Shown here in pieces: positions 59-4,081 of a stretch of 5,611 bases of DNA (position 1 is the first letter of the stretch; every line of letters starts with the position of its first letter). The notes below the pieces were generated by a model. It did not search any database, was not told the DNA's origin, and saw only the letters and a list, made by a program, of their open reading frames with translations. The position numbers were made by a program, and so were the translations under genes. This DNA is from Methanosarcina sp. Lineage in GTDB: Archaea > Halobacteriota > Methanosarcinia > Methanosarcinales > Methanosarcinaceae. The stretch covers positions 1 through 5,611 of the forward strand of contig JADGNM010000189.1 of the NCBI GenBank assembly GCA_017883485.1, in the 5' to 3' direction.

Positions 59-1107
59 TTATGTTCTATTTTTGCATGGGGGTCGAAATGTAAATTTTAG
101 AGAATTTGGCATTTTAATACGTGGGAAAAAGAATGCTGCATAATTTTTTCTAGTTATTTTCAAATCTGTTGAGAAATATGCATTTACAGAGGTGGGCTCT
201 TTCTTGTCTTGTGGAGGATCCATCAGCAGCATGGCCCTGCGTCTTTGCAGTAGTTGGCGGCTTTATCGTAAATAGAGATACGTATCTTCTCTTCGAAATC
301 TTTTTCAAAGGTCCTTGGAGGTATGCAGAGAAGATTGAAGATATCTGCATCTTCAAGTGCGTAAATACCTTTCTTTCCTTTCTTATCATCTGAGATCAGA
401 TCTGTGTCAATGATATCAGCACCGTCATTTCCTTCTTCAAATTTAACAGGTTTTTTTGCATCAATTTTATCAGGACGTATGTCTGGTAATTCTTTAGTTT
501 CTCCGCTTACGCGTACAAACTTGGAATTTTGCTCTAAAAATTTTTTTACATAGGATGGTGCAAATGGATTTAAAGAAAGATTACGTATTATTTCGATCTC
601 CCCAGTACCAGTTCCTTCTTCTGAAGGTCCTGGATCCATAATTGTCAAATTAAAAAATTTTTCTCCCTCTTTCTTTATAATATCGTCTTTATCTTTTGTA
701 TCGTAATCAATTGCAGCCTTCAAGTTGTTACCCCACTCACCAGGACTTTTTGCTTCTAAAACTAATTCTTTAATTTTTGCTGCTTTTGATGACGGCAGTT
801 TTACTACTGCTGATTTAGTAGTAATTTTTTTGTCTTTAGAGTCTGAAGTTACCCTGACGATAACTGCATCTTTTCCACCATTTCCAAAATATTGCTGTAC
901 AGCGAAACTCATTGTACTCTTTTCCCAGAGTCCACCAAAGATCCGAACAAAGTCTCCAAAGTTATGGATCAAAATGGGTTCATTCACAGGACCTTTTTTA
1001 GCTCTTCCGACAAAAGCAGTAGTTGAAGTGCTAACCCCCATTATAGTACGAACTCCACTGGGGATTTCTTCAATGTAAACACCTGGGTATGTAGGGCTAA
1101 CTGGCAT
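59..1107 (-). pseudogene. Contractile tail sheath protein (eCIS/phage tail type), frameshifted and truncated
   Basis: Tail sheath proteins polymerise around the inner tube of contractile tails and drive it through a target envelope when they contract. The reading starts at ATG 1107 with Shine-Dalgarno AGGAG (1114-1118) six bases upstream. The N-terminus (PVSPTYPGVYIEEIPSG, then TAFVGRAKKGP and a QYFGNGG motif) is classic for phage_sheath_1/COG3497 proteins. Later landmarks are GNDGAD, IYALEDADIFNLLCIPP and AANYCKD, ending in frame 1 at residue 289. The expected continuation, RAMLLMDPP then NYAAFFFPRIKMPN, is found in another frame from 238 downward. One base is missing near 239-241 (GAC-GC-AGG where GAC-CGC-AGG is expected). 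The second frame ends at TAA 61-59, soon after a recognisable PPC motif. About 350 codons survive, whereas eCIS sheaths usually have roughly 450 or more, so the C-terminal domain is missing. A single-base sequencing error could explain the frameshift but not the early stop. Confidence 0.85.
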
Positions 1108-2290: not shown

Positions 2291-2357
2291 AATCGGTGCC
2301 TCAGAACTCATAGGGCTCATCATGGATCAGCAAAATTTTTCATCACAGGCACCGGTT
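2291..2357 (-). ncRNA. Box C/D guide RNA, predicted to guide 2'-O-methylation of tRNA-Met
   Basis: Read on the minus strand, all four boxes are present in order: C box GTGATGA (2346-2340), D' box CTGA (2330-2327), C' box ATGATGA (2323-2317) and D box CTGA (2304-2301). The spacing is that of archaeal C/D RNAs: 3 nt between D' and C', and exactly 12 nt between C' and D. The ends close with a terminal stem, CGGTGCC (2354-2348) pairing with GGCACCG (2300-2294), extended past one C-A mismatch by two A-U pairs. Such RNAs bind L7Ae, Nop5 and fibrillarin, and methylate the target base paired five nucleotides upstream of the D or D' box. The D guide is GCCCUAUGAGUU; its complement contains CUCAUA, the anticodon loop of methionine tRNA, with the predicted methyl on the C of CAU (position 34). 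The D' spacer (AAAAUUUUG) is only 9 nt and all but one base A/U, so it is probably not a guide. A box A lies at the right distance upstream. Confidence 0.85.
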
Positions 2358-2379: not shown

Positions 2380-2387
2380 TAATATAA
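2380..2387 (-). promoter_or_regulatory. Box A (TATA) for the C/D RNA
   Basis: TTATATTA on the minus strand is centred about 26 bp upstream of the first base of the RNA's terminal stem (2357). This is the usual archaeal distance from TATA centre to transcription start. It suggests that the guide RNA has its own promoter and is not processed from pyrF read-through. Confidence 0.5.
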
Positions 2388-2457: not shown

Positions 2458-3123
2458 TCAGCTTTCTTTTCTTAGCTCGGCCTCAATTTCCTCAGCAATC
2501 ATGCGGGCGGCTTCTCTTGGGGATTCTGCATTATAGATACTGCGTCCGACAATCACCCAGTCAGCACCTGCTGCAATTACATCCGAGGCTTTCCCTCCCT
2601 GAGCGCCTACTCCGGGGGAGATAATGGCAAGTTCGTCTCCGATGATTTCTCTTATCCTTTTTACTCTTTCAGGCCTGGTAGCCGGGGCAACAAGCCCGAA
2701 GGCTCCTGATTCAGCGGCCATTTTAGCGATCGCTTCTGCAACAGGCTGTAAGAATTCGGCTCCTCCAGGATGGCTCATTTCGCTTATAACAAATATATCT
2801 TTCTTGTATTCGGAAGCGACTTCCTGGCAGGCATCAAGGCTGTCTTTTCCGGTAAAGCCCTGAACAATAACTGCATCTGCTCCAGCTTTAAAGACCTGCT
2901 CACAGATAAGTTGGTTGGTGTTTGGGATATCTGCGACCTTGAGATCGGCTATAATCGGGGCGAATATGGCAAGTTCCCTGATAATTTCAAGTCCTGTAGC
3001 AAGTATGAGAGGATAGCCAACCTTTATCGCATCCACAAATTCCCGGACGTCTTCTGATATTCTCAGAGCTTCTTTCCTGTCGGTTACATCCAAGGCAAGG
3101 ATCATACATGTATTCTTTTCCAT
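2458..3123 (-). CDS. pyrF: Orotidine 5'-phosphate decarboxylase
   Basis: This enzyme converts OMP to UMP and CO2, the last step of de novo UMP synthesis, in the cytoplasm as a TIM-barrel dimer. The 221-residue product has the archaeal size. Visible active-site elements, numbered from MEKNT, are D12 in ILALDV, K34 in DAIKVGYP, and the catalytic D60-x-K62-x-x-D65 tetrad region ([12 protein letters not shown]). They continue with S117 in SEMSHPG, the phosphate-gripper Q175 in [10 protein letters not shown], and R194 in VGRSIYN. All match the Methanothermobacter-type enzyme in order and spacing. I chose ATG 3123 because GAGGTGAT (3127-3134) precedes it. The open frame runs 22 codons further up, but those overlap the end of the preceding gene in another frame and match nothing in the family. 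It is the second gene of a two-gene operon with the DHS-family gene; oligo-T runs follow. Confidence 0.97.
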
Positions 3124-3126
3124 TAA

Positions 3127-3134
3127 ATCACCTC
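3127..3134 (-). promoter_or_regulatory. Strong Shine-Dalgarno of pyrF overlapping the upstream stop codon
   Basis: GAGGTGAT is an exact match to eight bases of the archaeal anti-Shine-Dalgarno complement. The TGA stop of the upstream gene (3130-3128) lies inside it, and ATG 3123 follows. The arrangement fixes the pyrF start and suggests translational coupling between the two genes. Confidence 0.8.
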
Positions 3135-4081
3135 TTATAAAGGCGAGTCCGCACTGCTGCGACCATGAGCGGGAGAGTAATAGTTGCATCTGCGTACACG
3201 GTCACTGATTTTGCATTTTCGCCTACCTTTCCCCATGACTGGGCTTCATCAAGAGTTGCGCCGCTCAGGCCGCCTGTTTCCGGGCGGTCCATTGTGAGCT
3301 GGATTGCATAATCAAAAGACTTCGGAGTCACAAGCATGGACTGAAGAATATAATTTTTGGGAACTCCACCGCCAAGCAGCAGGGCACCTGTACTTTCAGC
3401 CTCATAGCAAAGTTCCATGAACTCATGCATATCGGCAAAGGCATCTACTTGCAGAGGATTTCCTTCCTTGTACAGCCAGGCTTGAAGCCCGATCACAGAA
3501 TCCTGCAGGGCCGGACAGTAGACCGGCACATCCATCTCGGCCGCGGTTTTCAGAATGGAAGAGTCGTCCTCGAGATTTTTTCCGATTTCGGTAAGCACCT
3601 GCCTGATAGAGAGGCTTTCTTGCGGAAGGCCGGCATAGACGCCCTGTAAAAACTCCTCCAGGTCAGTAAAATGCTGGTCAGGGAGATAGACGTCGTAAAT
3701 CCTGTCTATACATTCATGCCTCAGCTGGATATCATCTGCACAGTCCGTACCCTTATAATGGTGAAGGCCCAGGGCTTCAACAGTATCGTGCACCATATTG
3801 GCTCCGGTAGTGACAAGGACATCTATATGCCCATCCCTGATAAGGTCTGCGATTATCGCTCTCATGCCCGCCGGAGTCATTGCCCCCGCAAGCCCGAAAA
3901 ATTTAGTAGTTTTTTCGGAAGCCAGCATCTCGTAATAGATGTCTACAGCCTCAGCAAGCCTGCCCGCTCCGAAAGCACAGCCGCCGTATTCCCTTAGAAG
4001 CTCATCCACACTCATATTCGGGACTATTTTTGCACTTTTCACTGGTGTTGTAAGTTTTTTAGCAGAAGCCTGAAAGTCCAT
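3128..4081 (-). CDS. dys: Deoxyhypusine synthase family protein (possibly a DHS-like paralogue)
   Basis: DHS is NAD-dependent and transfers the aminobutyl group of spermidine to a lysine of aIF5A, the first step of hypusine formation. The 317-residue product has family size. Landmarks are [13 protein letters not shown] (residues 62-74), [11 protein letters not shown] (89-99, NAD site), [11 protein letters not shown] (107-117), [12 protein letters not shown] (234-245) and [17 protein letters not shown] (270-286), where K285 is the lysine that carries the enzyme intermediate. Two places differ from canonical DHS: RIYD (127-130) replaces RIGN, and PKNYI replaces PKHHI, which removes the histidine that contacts spermidine. 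Both changes recall the DHS-like group, some of which make homospermidine. The substrate is therefore uncertain although the fold and lysine chemistry are clear. ATG 4081 has GAGGG (4092-4088) six bases upstream. It is the first gene of the operon with pyrF. Methanosarcina genomes, as I recall, carry two annotated dys genes, and this could be the divergent one. Confidence 0.9.

Follow-up and report, generated by a model that had tools for sequence, protein, structure and literature searches.

What does the small RNA gene downstream of pyrF in this Methanosarcina contig act on, and does it act before or after its target is spliced? On the minus strand of the window (the whole 5,611-nucleotide stretch of DNA that was analysed) we predict a gene for a box C/D guide RNA with an 11-base complement of the exon-intron junction of relatives' elongator tRNA-Met. 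In our estimate the probability is about 0.9 that this reading is correct and that the RNA is likely to direct 2'-O-methylation of C34 before splicing. The features are listed below; the stem and boxes were read from the sequence, and other support is given in brackets.

2295..2353, minus strand: predicted box C/D sRNA, whole (Rfam sR41 match at 2299-2350 plus the terminal stem; conserved in relatives)
2348..2353, minus strand: terminal stem, 5' strand, GGUGCC
2340..2346, minus strand: box C, GUGAUGA (also alignment)
2331..2339, minus strand: D' guide, AAAAUUUUG (12 variants among 22 loci; shared target not found)
2327..2330, minus strand: box D', CUGA
2317..2323, minus strand: box C', AUGAUGA
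2305..2316, minus strand: D guide, GCCCUAUGAGUU, 12 nucleotides (bases 1-11 from box D pair with relatives' elongator pre-tRNA-Met)
2309, minus strand: G, the fifth base from box D, facing C34, the C of CAU (sequence and pairing)
2301..2304, minus strand: box D, CUGA
2295..2300, minus strand: terminal stem, 3' strand, GGCACC
2381..2387, minus strand: tentative TATA-like element TTATATT, 28-34 nucleotides upstream of the sRNA (sequence only)
2458..3123, minus strand: OMP decarboxylase (pyrF), upstream neighbour of the sRNA in 21 of 22 loci
3128..4081, minus strand: deoxyhypusine synthase, upstream neighbour of the sRNA in the same proportion of loci

The layout is that of the archaeal C/D class. 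Boxes C, D', C' and D follow one another in this order, near RUGAUGA and CUGA, in the window and in 22 loci, and a terminal stem closes boxes C and D (GGUGCC/GGCACC in the window; core GUGCC/GGCAC in the 22 loci). The class also has an antisense stretch of 8-12 nucleotides beside box D or D' with the target base at the fifth position, and the D guide provides one. By analogy with known members, the RNA would be transcribed, bound by L7Ae, Nop5 and fibrillarin, and active in methyl transfer. An Rfam cmscan of the window gives sR41 as the best match on the minus strand (48.5 bits, E-value 4.1e-09; gathering score 54 bits) and, at the same site, sR-tMet (27.9 bits, E-value 0.055; gathering score 50 bits), both thus below their gathering scores. 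ARAGORN finds no tRNA in the window, so the sRNA does not lie inside a tRNA intron. The letters CTTATA stand upstream of the sRNA in 10 of 21 aligned loci.

The gene recurs throughout the genus. We find CTCATAGGGCTC in a C/D context in 22 of the 24 same-genus genomes searched, the window's own included; the two exceptions are G010, with no match, and G017, whose match is not a C/D RNA. In the 21 aligned loci the sRNA forms a conserved island between diverged flanks, and the D guide is invariant across the same-genus loci except for one U-to-C change beside box D in L039. This recurrence, the island and the unchanged D guide together indicate more than chance. The D' guide is variable and probably without a target. 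In the one locus that lacks pyrF upstream (L049), the contig breaks off. Elsewhere in the window, an open reading frame at 223-1107 (minus strand) resembles a tail sheath protein over residues 9-138 only (PHROG 23, E-value 8.9e-17; no Pfam match); within the stretches compared, we do not find it next to the sRNA in any locus of the relatives.

Which RNA does the D guide recognize? The plus strand at 2305-2316 reads AACTCATAGGGC, and the guide is the complement of AACUCAUAGGGC. We did not find an elongator tRNA-Met gene in the window's own assembly (2.83 Mb in 453 contigs, 81.67% complete), so the match described here is to same-genus relatives. Two kinds of CAU tRNA are present in the own assembly, the initiator (L015) and a second one (L006), which we take from its first bases to be tRNA-Ile2; CTCATAGGGC occurs in that genome at five places, one of them the sRNA itself, and ARAGORN detects no tRNA at any of them. 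The pattern GGTGGCTYAG... had no match in 23 genomes because these tRNA-Met genes read GATAGCCTAG; the tRNA family model recovered the gene. By DNA search it is present in 26 of 29 same-genus relatives (the misses are G009, G011 and G020, with completeness of 75, 60 and 87%) and in 69 of 79 genomes overall, the own genome counting as a miss. Genome G016, of the same genus as the window, has its tRNA-Met at the contig and position of that in G431, to which the named locus L184 (Methanosarcina spelaei) belongs, and this identifies the window as Methanosarcina. In G002 and G004 the elongator gene is a 112-nucleotide gene with a 36-nucleotide intron after position 37. The relatives' genes read CCAGA-CUCAUA up to this position, and their introns begin GGG. 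All 68 fetched genes (those of the 69 matching genomes other than G059) contain CCAGACTCATAGGG, while the rest of the intron, beyond the conserved junction, varies among relatives.

The D guide forms 11 contiguous base pairs with this precursor (10 Watson-Crick and one G-U; score 10.4). Counting from box D, its partners are G30 (the G-U pair), A31, C32 to A37, and intron positions +1 to +3, and the fifth guide base lies opposite C34. The earlier note had proposed, from the sequence, that the guide is complementary to a tRNA-Met anticodon loop, that the N+5 rule puts the methyl group on C34, and that the guide may pair with an intron-containing precursor across the splice site; all three proposals agree with the relatives' genes, where pairing falls to 8 base pairs (score 7.4) once the tRNA is spliced. 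It had the complement end in GGGC, of which GGG is borne out by the intron and the final C is not, as Methanosarcina introns read GGGA. It had also named, as what would refute it, a match of fewer than 9-10 contiguous bases around C34 or a better rRNA match; we find 11 in the precursor, while the 16S-23S operon stretch offers no more than 8. In a scan of 25 own tRNA genes and one relative's 16S-23S operon (G002, L179), the next-best target is tRNA-Leu(GAG), with 10 contiguous pairs of which four are G-U (score 7.6), and each of the two own CAU tRNAs forms 8 pairs, two of them G-U (score 6.8). Among shuffled guides, only 2 of 2,000 reach a score of 10 or more on the precursor.

On this pairing, the guide RNA would direct 2'-O-methylation of the wobble base C34 on unspliced elongator tRNA-Met. 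Guide binding and the splicing endonuclease would exclude each other on the precursor, since three of the paired bases are intronic and C32-A35 could pair with UGAG of the intron in the bulge-helix-bulge that is spliced. Such exclusion would put methylation first and would largely keep it off CAU tRNAs other than the elongator.

Might the guide instead act on spliced tRNAs, including the initiator and tRNA-Ile2, all of which carry CUCAUA? The 8-base pairings just described would allow it, and Cm34 is given for tRNA-Met-i of M. maripaludis and P. furiosus in an excerpt of PMC7668247. However, these duplexes are about 9 kcal/mol weaker than that with the precursor (-18.2 kcal/mol for the precursor, -9.3 for Ile2, -8.9 for the spliced elongator and -8.5 for the initiator, whose best duplex is out of register). 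Moreover, guide bases 9-11, which pair only with the intron, are kept across the phylum draw described below, in which the pattern allowed one mismatch. We therefore consider action on spliced tRNAs very unlikely. A ribosomal target, with the tRNA match as a side effect, is more improbable still. It would accord with sR41 being the best Rfam match, since Pyrococcus sR41 is suggested to modify G1950 of 23S rRNA (PMC2584109, in excerpt), and the best 23S stretch binds the D guide better than the spliced elongator does (-12.1 kcal/mol). Yet the D guide's best operon match by score, in 23S at 8 base pairs with one G-U (score 7.4), is low within the range of 6 to 11, mostly 7 or 8, that 200 shuffled guides reach on the same operon stretch, and none of the 12 D' variants has a set-wide site in the one relative's operon.

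The sRNA could also serve mainly to time precursor folding or splicing, with methylation secondary or absent. Its binding would mask the 5' splice site together with the bases of the splicing helix, and the intron itself tends to pair with exon positions 22-28 (see below). Against this, C34 lies exactly opposite the fifth guide base from box D and is a position methylated in Haloferax according to work cited in excerpts of PMC4033218 and PMC6601510, and we hold a timing role to be highly improbable. Methylation of C34 on the unspliced precursor is the reading that we prefer.

This mechanism is already in print for other archaea, and the Methanosarcina sRNA is probably a further case of the published archaeal tRNA-Met wobble guides. 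According to excerpts of PMC2584109, intron-containing tRNA-Met receives its Cm34 through a separate C/D RNA (sR49 is the one predicted in Pyrococcus), the guide pairs with part of the intron, methylation must precede splicing, and 18 archaeal candidate guides were found. By that description sR49, like our RNA, is a stand-alone C/D RNA and is aimed at the same base of an intron-containing precursor. The earlier note had taken the locus for the Methanosarcina counterpart of Haloferax sR-tMet, whose Rfam family (RF02163) also includes other haloarchaea. In favour of this, both are separate C/D genes with the guide block GAGCCCUAUGAGU in common, and the known target of sR-tMet is Cm34 of elongator tRNA-Met (PMC4033218, in excerpt). 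The Methanosarcina sRNA differs in that it is shorter and scores below the family cut-off, whereas haloarchaeal loci L141 and L157 reach 70.8 and 72.6 bits, and its box D is CUGA, as opposed to mostly CCGA among the haloarchaeal matches listed. The Rfam sR41 model (RF01126) shares the compact layout and the D guide GAGCCCUAUGAG; it differs in the last two guide bases (UU in Methanosarcina, not cg) and in the D' guide, in addition to the score below cut-off. There is a conflict of names here: RF01126 carries the tRNA-Met guide, while the excerpted PMC2584109 assigns that role to sR49 and regards sR41 of Pyrococcus either as an orphan or as a candidate for 23S. Guides of the sR50 type for tRNA-Trp likewise direct methylation of a wobble C34 before splicing, with intron pairing (excerpts of PMC2584109 and PMC7994747), but they lie in the tRNA intron, in contrast to our sRNA, whose gene follows pyrF. 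Human SNORD97 and SCARNA97 are also C/D RNAs for C34 of elongator tRNA-Met; unlike our sRNA, they are two cooperating eukaryotic RNAs, described as pairing with the anticodon stem-loop (PMC6601510, in excerpt).

How widely is the guide distributed? Allowing at most one mismatch, GAYGAGCCCTATGAGNNCYGA is present in 203 of 390 Halobacteriota genomes (72/72 in family f1, 6/11 in the order's other families and 23/23 in f6). All matches listed have U at guide position 2 but differ at positions 1 and 12, so that the conserved guide block is the exact complement of ACUCAUA/GGG (the slash marks the splice site). A scan of named genomes gives at least 117 stretches with the guide, and the 80 loci listed include Methanothrix, Methanoperedens, Methanomassiliicoccaceae, Thermoplasmata, DHVE2, Marine Group III and Thermococcaceae. 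Of these 80 loci, 75 have U at position 2 and 5 have C. Only 65 of the 80 have a C-box-like motif upstream, so not every scan match is a shown C/D RNA; the match at L210 probably is not one. In the genomes of guide-bearing named loci, a pre-tRNA-Met pattern matched 17 of 44, of which 13 are real tRNA genes (L310, L311, L312 and L316 were dropped as not tRNA); the other 27 gave no match with this narrow pattern. Among the 13 genomes, 11 pair U2 of the guide with A31 and Thermococcaceae pairs C2 with G31, so that 12 keep a Watson-Crick pair, one of them through change on both sides. In a Thermoplasmata metagenome-assembled genome (L196, L309), C2 of the guide faces A31 of tRNA-Met, either a true mismatch or a misbinned contig. 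Guide position 1 varies freely, and we find no support for its covariation with tRNA position 30.

Does the conserved junction by itself indicate a guide? A tRNA-Met pattern matched 137 of the 390 Halobacteriota genomes (the matches were partly checked, and that in G299, L170, is not tRNA-like). In families f16, f25 and f26, the intron and the junction CTCATAGGG are kept in 26 of 26 genomes tried, and the guide core CCCTATGAGTNCTGA is found in none of these 26. Conservation of the junction is therefore no evidence for a guide, and the junction must have another use. In a model of the splicing fold, its CUCA can pair with UGAG of the intron as the centre of the bulge-helix-bulge. The converse is seen in f6, with the guide in 23 of 23 genomes and the tRNA-Met pattern, which is narrow, in 0 of 23. 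A longer but still narrow pattern, applied to 40 f6 and haloarchaeal genomes, gave two matches (L176, a real tRNA-Met, and L177): one tRNA-Met in 30 haloarchaeal genomes and one match, unchecked, in 10 f6 genomes.

The variable part of the intron holds a second regularity, which we followed over loci L070-L137, L168-L176, L300-L309, L313-L315 and L317-L356. The motif GCGY occurs in 63 of 65 parsed introns (of 68 genes) as against 5.7% of shuffles, and it is able to pair with exon positions at about 22-28. In several groups both sides have changed and yet match (GGUGGAG/CUCCACC in DHVE2, GGCGGA/UCCGCC in Thermoplasmata, GGUGUC/GACACC in f7). With one gene from each of 16 lineages, introns fit their own exons better than swapped ones (8 of 20,000 permutations as good), and the mean ensemble pairing probability is 0.45 as against 0.13 with shuffled introns (0 of 5,000 resamples), p-values that are optimistic because the idea was formed on the loci and then tested on them. 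The hairpin is unevenly distributed, with a pairing probability of at least 0.41 in 9 lineages and at most 0.15 in 7. In 14 of the 16 lineages, the natural intron leaves the guide's target less paired than shuffled introns do. Gene by gene, the shuffle p-value is 0.05 or less in only 7 of 97 unique genes (125 of 129 loci were parsed; L112, L133, L136 and L172 were dropped). For G002 the best fold has -47.1 kcal/mol with the hairpin, compared with -37.9 when the cloverleaf and bulge-helix-bulge are enforced, the latter placed by hand since unconstrained folding does not give it; these energies ignore tertiary contacts. Intron-exon pairing is not confined to cases with a recognised guide.

The hairpin between the intron and exon positions 22-28 would expose the guide's target, a post hoc and unproven proposal. 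A further step, which we regard as doubtful, would make the intron a conformational switch that enforces methylation and then splicing in many euryarchaea. The middle of the intron would pair with exon positions 22-28, undoing the D stem and the splicing fold, and the hairpin loop would present ACUCAUAGGG to the C/D guide; after methylation of C34, the precursor would refold into the cloverleaf with its bulge-helix-bulge and then be spliced. If real, the hairpin would provide a mechanism for the order of methylation and splicing.

These findings place a predicted guide for the wobble base of tRNA-Met in Methanosarcina, a methanogen amenable to laboratory manipulation, and they show a single guide core shared by haloarchaea, methanogens, Thermoplasmata and Thermococcaceae. 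Because the core is so widespread, whereas three families have the junction and no recognised guide, the reason for retaining the intron becomes testable: it may be kept for methylation, for the order of processing, or for neither.
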